Source of the DNA: Sphingobium yanoikuyae
GTDB lineage: Bacteria; Pseudomonadota; Alphaproteobacteria; Sphingomonadales; Sphingomonadaceae
DNA: 64,000 bases
Direction of reading: 5' to 3'
NCBI RefSeq assembly: GCF_013001025.1
Contig: NZ_CP053021.1
Coordinates: 3,934,001 to 3,998,000 of the forward strand
The translations under genes were made by a program, and so were the position numbers. Each line of letters opens with the position of its first letter. Within the stretch, counting starts at the first letter, position 1. Under the pieces are notes generated by a model. That model searched no databases and was not told where the DNA came from. It was given only the letters and a program-made list of their open reading frames with translations. Of the stretch, positions 21,861-61,543 are shown one piece after another.

Positions 21861-22937
21861 TCAGTGCAGTATGGCGTCGGTATCGACCAGCCGCACATCG
21901 TGCATCATGTCGAGATAGGCCTGGAGATAGAATTTGTGCGAGGCGCCGACGATCACCAGCATCCGCTGGCCCGGCGCGGCGGCGAAGACGTCGCGAATAT
22001 TGGCCGCCATGCGCAGGTTGCGCACCTCCCAATAGCCGGCATAGCCGCGCCCGAAACGCTCGGGCGAAGGCTCCGTGAGCGCCGCGCCGAAATCGCTGTC
22101 ATAGATGGTCTGCGCCTGATCCGGCGCATTATAGGCGCGATAGAGCGCCAGCACGCCGGCCCCCGTCCGGATGCCGGGCTGCAGCGCCGCATCGGCCGCC
22201 TTGCGCCGCGCCGTCGCTTCATTGTCCCACGCCTTCATGATCGCCGCGCCCACTGCCTTCTCCTCCTCGGCATTGCGATAGAGCCGGTCGGCGCTGTGGT
22301 CGTCCATCGGTTCCAGCCGCTCCAGCCCCAGCCTGGCAGCCAGCGGCGCGGCAATCAGGAACTCCTCGTTGCGACGCTGGCGCAGCGTTTCCAGCCGCGC
22401 CACCAATATGGCGTCCAGCCCATCCCCCACATGACGGTCCGCGCCGTCCAGCCGCAGCCATTGCACCAGCGCCGATCCCTGATCCGCCGCCGCCAGGAAC
22501 AAGGCCGCCAGATGGCGCCGATCCGATGCCGTCGGTCGCTCCGGCCAGGCGGCCAGACGCCGCTCGACCTCGGTCGTGGCAGCCGGTACGTCCAGCCCGG
22601 TCGCCTGGCGCGCCGGCGTCGCGTCCCAGCAATAGGTTTCCACCGTCTCCGCATAGCGGAACGGCGCGCGGCGCAAGGCGTCGCATTGCAGGCCAGACAG
22701 GGACTCGACCGCGATTGATTGCGGCTTCCACGCCCCCAGCCGGTCGATCAGCGGCCCCAGCGCCTTTGCATCGAAATCCTTTGGCCAGCCCGACAGATGG
22801 GGCGTGCCCAGCACCATCACCTCATTGGGCGGCCCCGCCACCGCCTTCAAAGCGCGCGGATCGAAACCGGGACCAGCCGCCTGCACCGACACCGCCGCAA
22901 GCCCCGCCGCCACCATTGCCATGATCGTCCGCATCAT
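21861..22937 (-). CDS. Secreted DUF5694 family protein
   Basis: A 358-residue protein with a signal peptide (MMRTIMAMVAAGLAAVSVQA). NEVMVLGTPHLSG near the N-terminus and the C-terminal MLVIVGASHKFYLQAYLDMM are typical of DUF5694, which resembles the TraB/erythromycin-esterase-like fold. Function is not established. Start chosen at a GGGAGCAGGG site before a double ATG. It is preceded by the aspS terminator and followed by ppk2. Confidence 0.8.
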   Translation of the reverse strand: MMRTIMAMVAAGLAAVSVQAAGPGFDPRALKAVAGPPNEVMVLGTPHLSGWPKDFDAKALGPLIDRLGAWKPQSIAVESLSGLQCDALRRAPFRYAETVETYCWDATPARQATGLDVPAATTEVERRLAAWPERPTASDRRHLAALFLAAADQGSALVQWLRLDGADRHVGDGLDAILVARLETLRQRRNEEFLIAAPLAARLGLERLEPMDDHSADRLYRNAEEEKAVGAAIMKAWDNEATARRKAADAALQPGIRTGAGVLALYRAYNAPDQAQTIYDSDFGAALTEPSPERFGRGYAGYWEVRNLRMAANIRDVFAAAPGQRMLVIVGASHKFYLQAYLDMMHDVRLVDTDAILH

Positions 22938-23000
22938 CCGCCCTGCTCCCTTGCCGCCACGTGTGTTATCACAACAATACAGCAAGGCAAGACGGCAAAG

Positions 23001-23029
23001 AAAAAGGCCCCTGCCGGATGGCAGGAGCC
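23001..23029 (-). terminator. Intrinsic terminator of aspS
   Basis: On the minus strand GGCTCCTGCC, loop ATCC and GGCAGGGGCC form a 10-bp stem with one G-T pair, followed by five Ts. It lies 27 nt past the aspS stop. Confidence 0.9.
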
Positions 23030-23055
23030 CTGTTCTTTCCAGCCTATGGAAAGGC

Positions 23056-24840
23056 TTATGCCTTCGCTTGCGGCTCCACCACGCGGACATGCAGTTCGCG
23101 CAGCTGCTTGAACTCGGCGGCGCTCGGCGCCCCCATCAGCAGGTCTTCGGCGCGCTGGTTCATCGGGAACAGCGTGATCTCGCGCAGATTCTGCGCGCCG
23201 CACAGCAGCATCACGATACGGTCGACACCGGCGGCCATGCCACCATGGGGCGGCGCGCCATATTGGAACGCGCGATAGAGACCACCGAACCGCTCTTCCA
23301 CGTCGGCCTGGCTGAGGCCGACCAGCTCGAACGCCTTGACCATCGCCTCGGGCGACTGGTTCCGGATCGAACCCGACGCGATCTCATAGCCGTTGCAGAC
23401 CATATCATACTGGTACGCCTTGAGGCTCAGCGGATCCTGGTTGTTGAGCGCGTCCAGCCCGCCCTGCGGCATCGAGAAGGGGTTGTGGGCGAAGTCAACC
23501 TTCTTCTCGTCCTCGTCATATTCATAGAAGGGGAAGTCGACGATCCAGCACAGGTCGAACCGGTCCTTGTCGATCAGGTCGAGCGTCTCGCCGACGCGGA
23601 TACGGGCGAGGCCGGCGAGCTTGGCCGCCTGGCCTTCCTTGCCTGCGGCGAAGAACACGCCGTCGTTCGGGCCAAGGCCCAGCGCTGCGATCAGCTTGGC
23701 GGTCGCTTCCTCGCCATGATTCTTGGCGATCGGGCCGCCGGGCACGCCATCCTTGATGTTGATATAGCCAAGGCCCGAATAGCCTTCGCCGCGCGCCCAA
23801 TTGTTCATGTCGTCGAAGAATTTGCGGCTGCCCGCGCCCGCACCCGGCGCCGGGATCGCACGGATCACATTGCCGCTCTCGACCAGCGAAGCGAAGATGC
23901 CGAAGCCCGAGCCGTGGAAATGCTCGGTCACGTCCTGGATGATGATCGGGTTGCGCAGGTCCGGCTTGTCGCTGCCATATTTCAGCATGGCTTCGGCATG
24001 CGGGATGCGCGGGAAGCTGCCGGCCGGGGTGACCGGCTTGCCTTGGGCAAATTCCTCGAACACCGATGCGATGACCGGCTCCATCGTGTTCCAGACATCT
24101 TCCTGGGTGACGAAGCTCATTTCCAGGTCGAGCTGGTAGAATTCGCCCGGCAGGCGATCGGCGCGCGGATCTTCGTCGCGGAAGCAGGGGGCGATCTGGA
24201 AATAGCGGTCGAAACCGGCAACCATCAGCAGCTGCTTATATTGCTGCGGCGCCTGCGGCAGGGCGTAGAACTTGCCCGCATGGATGCGGCTGGGCACCAG
24301 GAAGTCGCGCGCGCCTTCGGGCGAGGACGCGGTCAGGATTGGCGTCGAATATTCGGTGAAGCCGGCATCTTCCATGCGGCGACGCATGTCGCGGATGATC
24401 TTGGTGCGGGTGACGATATTGGCGTGCAGCGTCTCGCGGCGCAGATCCAGGAAGCGATAGCGCAGGCGGATATCCTCGGGATATTCCTGCTCGCCCGCCA
24501 CCGGCAGCGGCAGTTCGGCCGCGGTCGACAGCACGGTGACCTTGTCAGCCACGACCTCGATCGTGCCGGTCGCCATCTTCGGGTTGGTCGCTTCCGGGCC
24601 GCGCGCAACGACGGTGCCGTCGATCGTCACGACCGATTCCGCACGCAGGCCGTCCAGGATGCGCAGCGGCTCGCTGTCCGCCTTGGCGACGATCTGGGTC
24701 AGGCCATAATGGTCGCGCAGATCGATGAAGAGAACGCCGCCATGATCGCGCTTGCGATGCACCCAGCCGGACAGGCGCACATTCGCGCCGACATCGGCTT
24801 CACGAAGGGCGCCGCAATTGTGGGTGCGATAGGCGTGCAT
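23056..24840 (-). CDS. aspS: Aspartyl-tRNA synthetase
   Basis: A 594-residue class II synthetase. An N-terminal OB-fold anticodon-binding domain ([23 protein letters not shown]) is followed by the class II core ([10 protein letters not shown] as motif 2, GVDRIVMLL as motif 3) with the bacterial insertion domain between. The ATG at 24840 (MHAYRTHN) is preferred to an upstream in-frame TTG. Alphaproteobacterial AspRS is often non-discriminating and used with GatCAB; that is not tested here. Divergent from rnd. Confidence 0.97.
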
Positions 24841-57316: not shown

Positions 57317-57812
57317 TCAGTTGACCGGCGCCCGCCGCCGGTAGCTCAGCGCCTCGGCCACATGCACCCGGCCGACCTGCTCCGCGCCGGCCAGGTCGGC
57401 GATCGTGCGCGCCACCCGCAACACCCGCGTATAGCCGCGCGCCGACAGCTTCATCGCGGCGGCGGCCTGTGCCAATAATTGCCGCCCGGCCTCGTCCGGC
57501 CCGGCCACATCCTCCAGCCGCTCGCCATCCACCTCGGCATTGGTCCGCACCTTGCTGCCGGCATAGCGCCGGGTCTGTAGCGTGCGCGCCGCCGCGACGC
57601 GCGCGGCCACCTCCGCCGATCCCTCGGCCGGCGGCGGCAGCACCAGGTCGGCCGCCGTCACCGCCTGCACCTCGACATGTAGGTCGATGCGATCGAGCAG
57701 CGGTCCGGACACCTTCGCCTGATAATCGCTGGCGCAGCGCGGCGCGCGCGAACAGGCCAGGGCCGGGTCGGACAGATGGCCACAGCGACAGGGATTCATC
57801 GCCGCGATCATC
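57317..57812 (-). pseudogene. comM: comM (yifB), separated 3' fragment
   Basis: About 165 C-terminal residues of the Mg-chelatase-like AAA+ helicase ComM: IAAMNPCRCGHLSDPALACS, YQAKVSGPLLDRIDLHVEV and the C-terminal domain AMKLSARGYTRVLRVARTIAD to SYRRRAPVN. Similarity begins abruptly at AAMNPC; upstream sequence is the foreign insert. The matching N-terminus is 3.5 kb away at 61312-61543. ComM promotes branch migration during natural transformation. Confidence 0.92.
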
Positions 57813-58784
57813 CCTATAAACAACAGGAACTACTTTGCCTTTGTCCGCTGGAGGCACGCCCGCGGGATTGAGCGCAACGCGGAGCTCACTAAGGACGATA
57901 TTGATGACCTCGTTAAAGACCTGGAAGTCGGCGGCATCGTCGGATTGCCCCCATATCGGCAGCGGCTCGGAGAACTCATCCAGAAAATTGAGACGGGTGA
58001 GTTCGAAATTCCCTTCTATTGCAAAGGGAACAAGAAGTACGCCCGGAAAGAGCCGCTCGCCAATGCGCTCGGCGCACCTCACACACGGAGTCTTCCGGCA
58101 TCCGTTTCGCATGATTTGGATGACTTCATCCGCGGACAAGGCCTTTCAATCCAACCTCGCAAAGGCGCGGGCCAAGACGATGAGGAAGATGATCTGGTCA
58201 ACGAAATCGAGGAAGGTGCGCTTTCGGAGAATCGGATAATATCATTCCTGACTGCGCCGCAGTTACTATTCTATTATCGAAAATATCTTACCCATGATCC
58301 GATCAAATTCGAGCCGTTTGAAGGCGAGGATGGCATCTCGAAGATTGCTAAATCGATCTGCCGTGTCGCTGCGGAGCGATCTTTTACCACACCAGCATAT
58401 CAGGCCTGCTTTCTCGTCAATCAAGCAATAACCTGGATCACAACGTATTTTGATGAGATTCGAGATTTTACTAATGATCTCGATGAAACTATTAAAAAGT
58501 ACGAGGCGCTCAATCATTGGCGGCCCACAGAAGCGGCTTTCAATGAGCGGCTAAGAGAGGATCGGGACAAATACACCACGGCGCCGGGCAGTTGGTGGCC
58601 GATCCACCCGTCTTACTTCGCGGCACCTGGTTGGACAACGAATGTCAGTGAATACCGACCGGCGCTGCGTCCGGTCTTATTTGAGTTGCTCGCTACACCT
58701 ATTTGCGCACTTTGCTCATCCATGGCGCCCGGGCAGCATTACCGTCACTGGCGCGCAGCGAAACCCCGCTGGGACGTTGGTTGA
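57813..58784 (+). pseudogene. 5'-truncated island ORF running into an IS110 remnant
   Basis: The frame is open from inside the comM junction (NNRNYFAFVRWRHARGIE) through about 290 plausible residues to LRPVLFELLATP, after which it reads an IS110 fragment in the wrong frame. No ATG or GTG starts it; the first possible start is a TTG at 57945. It has an acidic patch (GQDDEEDDLVNEIEEG) and a helical C-terminal half (ACFLVNQAITWITTYFDEIR). I recognise no family. Low GC points to transfer. Confidence 0.55.
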
Positions 58785-58808
58785 CAGGAATGATCGAGCG
58801 AGGAGTTC
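58685..58808 (+). mobile_element. IS110-family transposase remnant
   Basis: In this frame VARYTYLRTLLIHGARAALP and RWLTGMIERG match the conserved C-terminal region of IS110/IS1111 transposases (YLRTLLIHGARA). Only about 40 codons are left, with no catalytic N-terminus and no element ends, so it is a dead fragment. Confidence 0.7.
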
Positions 58809-58872
58809 ATACGGCCGATCTCGAAAGCGGCCTGTTCGTCCCCGCCAGGCCAAATTTCTATCCGAACGACCA

Positions 58873-59487
58873 TCATCCCGGAATGACGTCGCTGAAATTC
58901 TTTGGCGGCTTTGCTCGCTTGAAATCTGGAGTAAATACCTCTGCTGTGACTTGCCGGCGAAATTCGCGAAGGGTGCGAAACGCTTCCAGCATAGCGATAA
59001 TCTGCCCCTCTGCGGAACTCTCCGTCCATCTTCGAAGAAACGTCTTGAAGCCGATGCCTTCAGCCACCTCAATCCGAAGTTCGTCAAAGAGTGCATACGC
59101 GTCGCCTACCGCGCGAAGCCAAGAAGGCTTAACCTGAGCCTCCTCATGGAACGACGTTTCTGGGCTACTATTTGGTCGATAGTCGGTCTTCTCTATGACC
59201 ACGCCGCGGAGGCGCCGATTGAGGGCGTTCGCGGCATTCCGATAGAGGCGGAGCTTTTCCGCCTCACTTGTCGGACTGGCTTCTAGGTTCTTCCACTTAA
59301 TAGTGATGGTCCCGGACGTTATGCTTCCAGCGTCGTCGAGCGTCCCCCAACTGATGTCCGCGACGAGCCGCTGACTGTTTCGTCTCACATTTATGAGGCC
59401 GATCTTTGCGCCCGGAGGCAATGCTCCGACCCAATCCGGTCTGAAAGGCGACGTCACGTACTCGTAACTTAAAAAGTCGGTTTTCAT
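58873..59487 (-). CDS. Island hypothetical protein, 204 residues
   Basis: MKTDFLSYEYVTSPFRPDW to KPPKNFSDVIPG. Mixed alpha/beta in appearance, with a beta-rich first half (ISWGTLDDAGSITSGTITIK) and a helical second half (SAEGQIIAMLEAFRTLREF). No signal peptide or membrane helix and no family recognised. The ATG overlaps the stop of a small upstream ORF by 4 nt (ATGA), which suggests coupled expression. Confidence 0.55.
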   Translation of the reverse strand: MKTDFLSYEYVTSPFRPDWVGALPPGAKIGLINVRRNSQRLVADISWGTLDDAGSITSGTITIKWKNLEASPTSEAEKLRLYRNAANALNRRLRGVVIEKTDYRPNSSPETSFHEEAQVKPSWLRAVGDAYALFDELRIEVAEGIGFKTFLRRWTESSAEGQIIAMLEAFRTLREFRRQVTAEVFTPDFKRAKPPKNFSDVIPG

Positions 59488-59687
59488 TGCGTGGACCTGA
59501 GTGTGCGGCGCGTCGCCTCAGGCATCAGGAATGCCAAACAGGAGGTGGACCCCCACGATGCATGCTCAAGGCGTGTTTCTTGAGAAGTGTCCGCGACGAG
59601 ATTCATCTTGAGGCTCCCACTATTTTCCTGTGCATCGGCTTGCCGAAGCGATGGCCGACATTCCCTACGGCCCACGAGGATCAGCAC
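59484..59687 (-). CDS. Possible small island ORF (67 residues)
   Basis: A GTG-started ORF that ends in an ATGA overlap with the 204-residue gene. It contains ENSGSLKMNLVADTSQETRL and no known motif. The overlap argues for coding, but there is no similarity evidence and the opposite strand is also open. Low confidence. Confidence 0.3.
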   Translation of the reverse strand: MLILVGRRECRPSLRQADAQENSGSLKMNLVADTSQETRLEHASWGSTSCLAFLMPEATRRTLRSTQ

Positions 59688-59777
59688 GATGAGCGCCTCT
59701 TCCCAAACGAGTGGGTGTGAGGCTGTTCGCTAGGAAGTGTCGGTCCGACCTGCCTATCGAGTGTGCTAACACATAGC

Positions 59778-59804
59778 GCCATATATGGCGTGGCTATATA
59801 TGGC
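59778..59804 (+). promoter_or_regulatory. Tandem palindromic operator before the XRE gene
   Basis: GCCATATATGGC (59778-59789, a perfect 12-nt palindrome) and GCTATATATGGC (59793-59804) repeat with a 15-bp period, about one and a half helical turns. They include TATATA, which could serve as the -10 of the regulator gene whose likely GTG start is 59811. Typical of an autoregulated controller. Confidence 0.65.
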
Positions 59805-59810
59805 GTTGCC

Positions 59811-60113
59811 GTGATTGCAAGTATTTCGTTGAACGGCCAAGTGTACAGCACGGCCCAAAAGAAGCTCGCAGCGACCATTCGCAGCCTGAGAGAAGCCAAA
59901 GGCGTCTCTCAGGAGCGATTCGCGCAACTCGCAAACGTGGAACGCGCTCGTTACGGACGTATCGAGCGAGGGGAGCTCAACATCTCGCTCAACGTCCTAT
60001 TCGCGTTAGCGGCGGGCCTGGGTGTGAAGCCTTCCGAAATCCTCGGAGAGATCGAGCTCACCGATTGCCAGCCCGACTCGGTTGGTCTTGAACCTGAAGA
60101 AACTCGGGCATAG
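59811..60113 (+). CDS. XRE-family controller-like regulator
   Basis: About 100 residues with a helix-turn-helix (KKLAATIRSLREAKGVSQER to YGRIERGELNISLNVLFAL). The GRIERGELNISL segment resembles restriction-modification controller (C) proteins and related XRE factors. An upstream in-frame GTG at 59763 would place the palindromic operators inside the coding region and yield the repeat IYGVAIYGVA, so the GTG at 59811 is preferred. No restriction or methylase gene is adjacent; its targets may have been lost or may be the divergent ORFs. Confidence 0.75.
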   Translation: MIASISLNGQVYSTAQKKLAATIRSLREAKGVSQERFAQLANVERARYGRIERGELNISLNVLFALAAGLGVKPSEILGEIELTDCQPDSVGLEPEETRA

Positions 60114-60443
60114 CTTGAGTCTGGGCGGACTTTCGGCGGGAACCAGGGGCTCAAGAGAGCCGGCAGCACGATCGTTGTCGTGATCCGTGGCTAATCGATG
60201 GCGAACACCAATGTCCCACCATCTATCAAGAAGTAGAATCCTTCTGACTTGAAGGGAATCGCCAATCGCCAAATCGAAGTTGCGCGACAAGGCAAATCGA
60301 CGATCTTGTCCGTGGCATCTGACGCTGGATCCGCAACAAGTGCTGCGCGAATTATGCCGCACCACATGGAAACGGGAGGTTGCGGGACGACAGGTATTTC
60401 TCGTGGATCAGGTTAGTTGCCGCCCCTGGCCATCCGGCTCGTG
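60114..60443. other. Gene-free island segment
   Basis: 330 bp without a supportable ORF, between the XRE gene and the stop of the minus-strand 141-residue gene. I see no promoter, repeat or known element here. Confidence 0.4.
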
Positions 60444-60869
60444 CTACTGTTCGCTGTCATCCGTATTAAACAGGTCACGCAGTTGGCCGAGTTCAAGACC
60501 GACGAATTCATCGATTGAAAAAACGTTTGGACGGGCGATCGCATACTCGGGTGAACCAACCACAACCAGGACTGGCGGATATCCGCCGTAAGCGGCGGGG
60601 TCAGACATATCTCTCCCCAAACTCGCCGCAAACGCGTCGGATCGCATCAGCCCTTCCAAAGAATCTGCTGAAATAATTTGCACCTGCGTCGGATTGATGG
60701 AGTTTTCAGCAATCTGTTCAATCATCTTCGCGCCAGCTTCGACAATATCATTTTGCCCGCCAGCGTCGACTATTATCGCCTTAAAGTCAGATTCCAACAA
60801 CTTCCTTTCGACTTGCTTCAGCGCGATGTCATTGCCTGTGGATGAGACTATCTGGATTAGGTCTAGCAT
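60444..60869 (-). CDS. Island hypothetical protein, 141 residues
   Basis: Starts MLDLIQIVSSTGNDIALKQ with GAGG 8 nt before the ATG; a GTG 30 nt upstream is possible but less well placed. Alternating strands and helices (FKAIIVDAGGQNDIVEAGAK, PVLVVVGSPEYAIARPNVF) and an acidic C-terminus (LRDLFNTDDSEQ). No family recognised. It has a clean frame and a good ribosome site, so it is probably a real gene. Confidence 0.6.
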   Translation of the reverse strand: MLDLIQIVSSTGNDIALKQVERKLLESDFKAIIVDAGGQNDIVEAGAKMIEQIAENSINPTQVQIISADSLEGLMRSDAFAASLGRDMSDPAAYGGYPPVLVVVGSPEYAIARPNVFSIDEFVGLELGQLRDLFNTDDSEQ

Positions 60870-60899
60870 TTCGAAAACCTCAAAAATTTCGAGTGCCAC

Positions 60900-61311
60900 C
60901 TTAGTCGCTAATTAGAGCATCTGCGGCCAGACCTCTAAATGTCCCAAAATGAGAAAAGCAACCGCCAACGTTGATCGACAACAAAACCCGCTCAGGCGCT
61001 GCCTCATCTCACGTCTGTGACCCCGCCTGTCACAGGTTCTTGAGCGGCACCAGGTGTCTGATGTGTAGCCTCAATGACAAAGTGGCCCCATGGAGCCGTC
61101 TTCAGCCCCCTCAGGCCTTGCCGCACACGTTGGCTGTGGCGCTAAGGAAGTGCCGCCTTCGGCGGTTGCGACCAGGGAAGTTCGAATATAAAATTCGAAC
61201 TTCCCTGGTCACTCAGATTTTATGGCAGCCTATCAATTCGGCGGTGTCAAAAAAAACAGGCTTTTCCGATACCTTAACCCAAATTGATAGGTTTCAGAAA
61301 CGTGAGAGGCA
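60900..61311. other. Hairpin-rich right end of the comM island
   Basis: About 410 bp with no supportable gene. It contains the perfect 18-bp hairpin (61170-61210) and a second inverted repeat CCTATCAATTCGG (61229-61241) / CCAAATTGATAGG (61279-61291) that ends 20 bp before comM sequence resumes. A run of eight As lies between the arms. Confidence 0.55.
61170..61210. repeat. Perfect 18-bp stem-loop in the island
   Basis: The arm 61170-61187 starts GACCAGGGAAG and is exactly complementary to 61193-61210, with a 5-nt ATAAA loop. There is no T-tract, so it is not a simple terminator. Confidence 0.85.
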
Positions 61312-61543
61312 CGCCTTCCTTGGGCAGGTCGGCGGGGGAGAGATTGACGGTGATCCGCTTGGGCGGCAGCGACAGGCCGATCGCGGCGATCGCATTGCGC
61401 ACCCGCTCGCGGCTTTCGGCCACCGCCTTGTCGGGCAGGCCGACGACGATGAAGGCGGGCAATCCCGGAACAAGCTGGCACTGCACCTCGACCGTGCGCG
61501 CCTCCAGGCCCAGATAGGCCACCGTCGAAACCGTCGCTACCAA
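61312..61543 (-). pseudogene. comM: comM (yifB), 5' fragment
   Basis: The first ~77 codons of ComM: a TTG start (61543) then VATVSTVAYLGLEARTVEV, PGLPAFIVVGLPDKAVAESR and KRITVNLSPADLPKEG. In intact proteins SH(F/Y)DLPIALA follows; here the frame runs into foreign sequence and stops 13 codons later. It lies 50 bp after rlmE on the same strand. Confidence 0.92.

Follow-up and report, generated by a model that had tools for sequence, protein, structure and literature searches.

In a 64,000-nucleotide stretch of the Sphingobium yanoikuyae genome (contig NZ_CP053021.1, positions 3,934,001 to 3,998,000; here, the window), the comM gene is broken in two by 3,503 bp of foreign DNA, which replaces 785 bp of the gene, ~262 codons. 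This insert is very probably what remains of a site-specific integrative element, now dead. The interruption is not a one-off, as unrelated elements have entered comM at several fixed sites, both in the genus and in the family. Window coordinates are used throughout, and genomes are denoted by their survey numbers (the window genome is G000).

The interrupted comM gene and the origin of the insert

The alignment with intact comM genes of close relatives, which the earlier note had proposed, places the junctions at positions 61314 and 57810, corresponding to nucleotides (nt) 230 and 1016 of a 1,506-nt reference comM. The 5' part of the gene occupies 61543-61314, and the 3' part 57810-57317; the ChlI domain is found on the former, and the Mg_chelatase and Mg_chelatase_C domains on the latter. 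Both ATPase motifs (codons 216 and 298 of the reference for GPPGAGKS and FLDEL, respectively) fall in the gap, and therefore loss of the ComM ATPase activity is predicted. The claim of the earlier note that comM is split, lacks about 260 codons with Walker A and B, and encloses unrelated low-GC DNA thus agrees with the alignment, the domain assignments and the base composition (GC content of 0.48-0.57 in the island versus ~0.66-0.72 in the flanks).

The gene is uninterrupted in the close relatives G029, G050, G017 and G021, and their gene order is kept on both flanks of the window locus. A search of the whole genome (5.94 Mb, 4 contigs), also suggested in that note, revealed neither a second comM nor the missing 785 bp, all ComM matches being limited to codons 1-80 and 332-502. 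Two other PF01078 matches in the genome were considered as a second comM and ruled out, being RtcR and a TadA-type ATPase.

The locus consists of the following features (ORF, open reading frame).

57317..57810, minus strand: comM 3' part, nt 1016-1506 of the reference plus the stop codon; 95.1% identity to G029 over 490 bp; PF13335 (E 9.2e-31) and PF01078 (E 2.7e-17)
57811..58696, plus strand: fragment of the 779-aa gene of the element recombinase module, residues 100-394; identical to G044; tblastn identity 99.3% over 295 residues
58692..58810, plus strand: 119-bp internal piece of an IS110-family transposase gene; 98.3% identity to NZ_CP139981.1 22936-23054, within coding sequence 22128-23159
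58808..61313, no strand: left end of the integrated element, 2,506 bp; 0 mismatches to G044 over 2,506 bp; 100% to G002; 96% to G025 over 1,653 query bases
58873..59487, minus strand: 204-aa ORF in the element; no match in Pfam, NCBIfam or PHROGs
59763..60113, plus strand: 116-aa ORF with a Cro/C1-type helix-turn-helix (HTH); PF01381 (E 3.6e-13)
60444..60899, minus strand: 151-aa ORF in the element; no match in Pfam, NCBIfam or PHROGs
61170..61212, no strand: palindrome close to the end of the element; in the copies of G044, G002 and G025 it matches itself over 41-43 bp at 93%
61314..61543, minus strand: comM 5' part, nt 1-230 of the reference, codons 1-77; 99.1% identity to G029 over 230 bp; ChlI PF13541 (E 4.5e-19)

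The origin of the insert is revealed by S. chungbukense DJ77 (G044, NZ_LBIC01000001.1), where a 55,396-bp element is located at the same comM nucleotide. The element end at comM nt 230 is common to the window genome, G044, G002 and G025. Besides the left end, 888 bp at the other side of the insert (57809-58696) are identical to G044, where they lie ~2.9 kb from the other end of the element; 2 bp of them are shared with comM, and the first residues of the match to the 779-aa protein overlap this 3' junction. The comM genes of the window and G044 are only 84.3% (5' part) and 85.4% (3' part) identical. Vertical inheritance of the island together with that of G044 was rejected on this ground: the two genomes share an identical element despite a difference of ~15% in comM, so the element was gained separately.

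The right end of the G044 element carries four co-directional genes encoding products of 691, 779, 162 and 412 aa. The 412-aa product is weakly similar to tyrosine recombinases (NF040815, E 4e-5, which does not reach the curated cut-off), and PF00589 is found in one, a distant one, of its seven homologues found; the gene is absent from the window. By our own reading of its sequence, the 691-aa product may contain recombinase-like motifs. Neither the 412-aa nor the 691-aa protein has a match in PDB. Relatives of the 779-aa protein are scarce (8 proteins among 8,000 scored candidates, and 2 loci in a pattern-limited scan). The earlier note held that no integrase remains; this is true of a complete one, while 57811-58696 still encodes residues 100-394 of a recombinase-module protein. 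No serine recombinase or IS1595 gene was seen among insert ORFs of at least 60 aa or seven scanned proteins, five of them from the insert.

The IS110 fragment sits at the internal-deletion scar, with a few of its end bases overlapping the neighbouring blocks. Its match NZ_CP139981.1 is an S. yanoikuyae plasmid, and further copies of the fragment occur in the genus. Plasmid relatives of the locus (nine records) match only the IS110 piece or short stretches. The palindrome is located ~100 bp inside the element end and is retained in the G044, G002 and G025 copies; it may be a terminator or a recombinase site.

PADLOC models applied to ten chosen proteins of the DJ77 element identified a CBASS effector, cyclase and E1-E2 protein, ZorA, ZorB, ZorC and ZorD, DruH and DruE, and a GajB-like helicase. 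Hence the DJ77 copy, the full-length relative of the window element (loci L059-L061), is a defence island that combines CBASS, Zorya and Druantia genes with the gene of a GajB-like helicase. None of these genes is present in the window remnant.

The history that we consider very probable as a whole consists of three steps. As the comparison shows, comM is occupied at codon 77 by a DJ77-type element, and three further species have the element at this very nucleotide. Its interior would then have disappeared, with part of an IS110 transposase gene staying behind at the scar. Finally, a deletion whose junction, directly visible, has a perfect 2-bp microhomology (CA) would have taken ~2.9 kb of the right end of the element together with 785 bp of comM; the whole 691-aa gene and the beginning of the 779-aa gene would have gone with that right end. 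The element would thus be unable to excise by itself, and ComM would be inactive. The proposal of the earlier note that an island had arrived and a deletion had occurred is consistent with this history, the island now being traced to a known element type and 785 bp of comM being absent.

Several points weigh against this reconstruction. The interior seen in the DJ77 copy may never have been present in the window lineage, and the two deletions may have occurred in either order. Moreover, the 691-, 779- and 162-aa genes match nothing in Pfam, NCBIfam or PHROGs, so the role of the module in integration is inferred. The 3' junction is found in the window genome only, which would also be expected from an assembly error joining unrelated contigs. 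Such an error is nevertheless very improbable: the genome comprises four contigs, and the one that contains the window measures 5.2 Mb; the gene order of relatives is kept on both flanks; and the 5' junction base, with the element end, is found again in three further genomes, of which two are identical at this place. A slightly less remote alternative, still improbable, is that two elements once resided in comM, one at site B and another close to site E (sites are defined below), and that recombination or deletion between them took the middle of the gene. The 3' break at nt 1016 is indeed close to site E1 (nt 998-1014), which is occupied in G043 and G001, and in G001 comM nt 96-1008 are lost between two serine-recombinase genes. 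However, the DNA that the window has at its 3' break comes from within the 779-aa gene of the site-B element and is not an element end.

Interruptions of comM in Sphingobium and its family

The genus was surveyed using 94 genomes, one per species, in which comM was searched with a protein query. In 25 of them the gene runs into non-comM DNA. The interrupted genomes are distributed as follows.

Both comM parts on one contig, at least 3 kb apart (15 genomes): G000, G001, G003, G004, G023, G027, G034, G043, G044, G049, G053, G064, G072, G079, G092
comM parts on two contigs (5 genomes): G002, G030, G045, G065, G074
One comM part found (5 genomes): G025, G028, G041, G068, G083

Among the other 69 genomes, 67 have a single continuous comM match close to full length; in G058 comM lacks its first 716 nt, up to the end of rlmE, and comM of G048 has one internal stop. 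In G049, the comM parts lie on the same strand at positions 2225945 and 3477915 of contig C1, 1.25 Mb apart, which is likely due to a large rearrangement after the insertion.

The junctions, read in all 25 genomes, fall into six recurrent sites and one single site.

Site A, nt 94-101: G065, G001
Site B, nt 227-235: G000, G044, G002, G025; a different element in G074
Site C, nt 628-644: G079, G064, G049, G003, G023, G045, G053, G068
Site D, nt 718-725: G004, G034, G092, G027, G072, G079
Site E1, nt 998-1014: G043, G001
Site E2, nt 1033-1045: G030, G041, G083
Single site, nt 884: G028

The comM gene of G079 carries two insertions, at C and D, and in G001 and G003 comM sequence beside the inserts is also lost. 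At site E2, the element ends of G041 (L067) and G083 (L066) match each other in mutually inverted orientation, with CTTGTGTGGCTTTCGC at the break. The differences between sites and between elements speak for many separate comM events.

The integration machineries at these sites are diverse. Nine large serine-recombinase genes (523-594 aa) are found at island ends at sites A (2), C (4), E1 (2) and E2 (1). Their products align in 32 of the 36 pairs, with 22-56% identity, and the four that were scanned match serine-recombinase models such as XisF or CcrB, below the curated cut-offs. Site D is occupied in six species by an IS1595-family transposon, which is bounded by 24-bp inverted repeats and flanked by an 8-bp target duplication. 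Its transposase matches NF033547 (E 2e-42) in the G004 copy, to which the other five copies are 84-94% identical. The inverted repeats and the duplication are present in all 11 insertions with both ends found (L034-L038, L040, L074-L078), six of them in comM, where the transposon is opposite to the gene in four cases and in the same direction in two. Overall, the transposon repeat occurs in 16 of the 94 genomes: in six it is in comM, in five both ends are elsewhere, and in five one end is elsewhere. Outside comM, the flanks of these transposons resemble each other in G062, G073 and G086, perhaps reflecting one shared second target.

The islands of G064, G049, G003, G068, G074, G041 and G083 yielded no identified recombinase; the one in G003 carries a Mutator-type transposase. 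In G028, a second four-gene module (L068, 1327-7688) has products of 184, 639, 905 and 404 aa, the last being a PF00589 integrase. This module starts at the comM break at nt 884, adjoining Walker B, and blastp revealed no clear similarity between it and the module at site B.

Control genes were searched with profile models. No interruption was observed in radA or recN, each matched in 93 of the 94 genomes: radA is in one piece of about full length in 92 (in G068 two overlapping adjacent pieces look like a frameshift), while recN is about full length in 91 and partial in two (G041, G038). The difference from comM is pronounced (25/94 versus 0/93, p ~9e-9; 15/94 versus 0/93 under the strict count, p ~3e-5; Fisher test), though the species are not independent and the comM search used a protein where those of the controls used profiles, so that the p values, including the one given below for comEC, are rough. 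As for competence genes, dprA was matched in 91 genomes, none of which has it in two separated pieces on one contig; in G055 it is in two pieces on two contigs, and a few matches are partial. In contrast to the controls, comEC (92 genomes matched) is split at the same position in four genomes, G001, G032, G056 and G064 (4/92 versus 0/93, p = 0.06), and has a frameshift-like break in G005. The split is at profile position ~72 of 270 (G001:C2, G032:C5, G056:C13 and C32, G064:C1); the pieces are 46 kb apart in G032 and 8 kb apart in G064, and comM is broken as well in G001 and G064. In the window genome, matches to comEC, dprA, radA and recN are all in uninterrupted frames.

The survey of the family covered 199 genomes, 195 of them outside Sphingobium. 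Among the latter, 30 were picked by two pieces or a weak partial comM match, and five more have no comM match. Two comM parts at least 3 kb apart on one contig are found in 18: six at site C, one at D, two at E, three at codon ~301-310, three at codon ~389-406, and three with larger losses or overlaps. Others among the 30 (e.g. G209, G219, G222, G251, G266, G274) look like frameshifts or contig ends.

Known comM elements and possible reasons for targeting

For other bacteria, both comM as a target of mobile elements and its reading as a conflict over transformation are already published (PMC4774983, PMC11472951). In Acinetobacter baumannii, comM is described as inactive in 22% of strains, and the loci that interrupt it include CBASS and Zorya (PMC11472951). 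Tn6022 is described as a Tn7-like element inserting near the comM Walker B, and Tsy elements, with YRec, HTH and TnsF, as inserting in the same region (PMC10293859). The window element type resembles the AbaR/Tn6022 islands, which often carry defence systems, in that its DJ77 copy has CBASS and Zorya (PMC11472951, PMC10293859), and it may resemble Tsy, a non-Tn7 type that inserts in comM with a tyrosine recombinase and companion genes (PMC10293859). It differs from both in its site: the window insertion is at nt 230, codon 77, and not at Walker B (FLDEL, codon 298), and from AbaR/Tn6022 also in the tyrosine-recombinase-like gene at its end. The comparison with AbaR made in the earlier note holds for comM as an island target, hit here at several sites. 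Tn7-type transposition genes are absent from the four G044 module genes and from seven window proteins (five of them island ORFs), the whole 55-kb element not having been scanned.

A preference of serine recombinases for comM is also published; magnesium-chelatase genes are reported as the target of 12.4% of predicted site-specific integrases, competence genes being enriched (PMC10083194), and the serine recombinase sr1WO of phage WO targets such a gene in Wolbachia (PMC9203015). The same target gene family is used by the large serine recombinases at sites A, C, E1 and E2 of the relatives, unlike the window element. Insertions into comM in several genera have been interpreted as a defence of the elements against removal by transformation (PMC4774983); the cases described there are gammaproteobacteria with related integrases, whereas here several unrelated machineries act in one alphaproteobacterial genus. 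The literature matches listed contain no description of comM interruption in Sphingobium, of the codon-77 module or of IS1595 in comM, and nothing on natural competence of Sphingobium. We regard the window as a new case, the interesting part being the convergence of several machineries on comM in this genus.

Why comM is hit can be explained in two ways. The hypothesis that mobile elements disable the competence genes of their hosts is a standing one. In Sphingobium and its family, comM could be a convergent landing gene, entered independently at fixed sites by at least three unrelated chemistries (large serine recombinases, the IS1595-type transposon with its repeated use of one site, and tyrosine-recombinase modules of several genes, among them a new type at codon 77), because in a host with broken comM, incoming DNA would be less able to displace the resident element by homologous recombination. 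We hold this explanation tentatively, at somewhat less than even chances. About evenly balanced is the possibility that comM is merely a conserved, dispensable and stable target sequence, and that the elements gain nothing by breaking it. Indeed, the sites lie in conserved coding sequence (e.g. site C in the Walker A region), the IS1595 transposon also inserts outside comM, as it does in 5 of the 11 insertions with both ends found, and dprA, which in 91 genomes is nowhere in two separated pieces on one contig, speaks against a competence-wide effect. On the other hand, radA and recN are conserved and dispensable too, and yet neither is interrupted in any of the 93 genomes in which it was matched; moreover, another competence gene, comEC, is repeatedly split at one position, albeit with the marginal p value compared to radA given above.

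The survey provides a comparative test of the standing hypothesis in an environmental genus, with one genome per species, in which comM is hit while two controls are not. The window adds that an element can decay and leave behind a permanent loss of comM. If comM is a convergent landing gene whose disruption protects the resident element, the window would show the aftermath, with the element dead and the host left without ComM.

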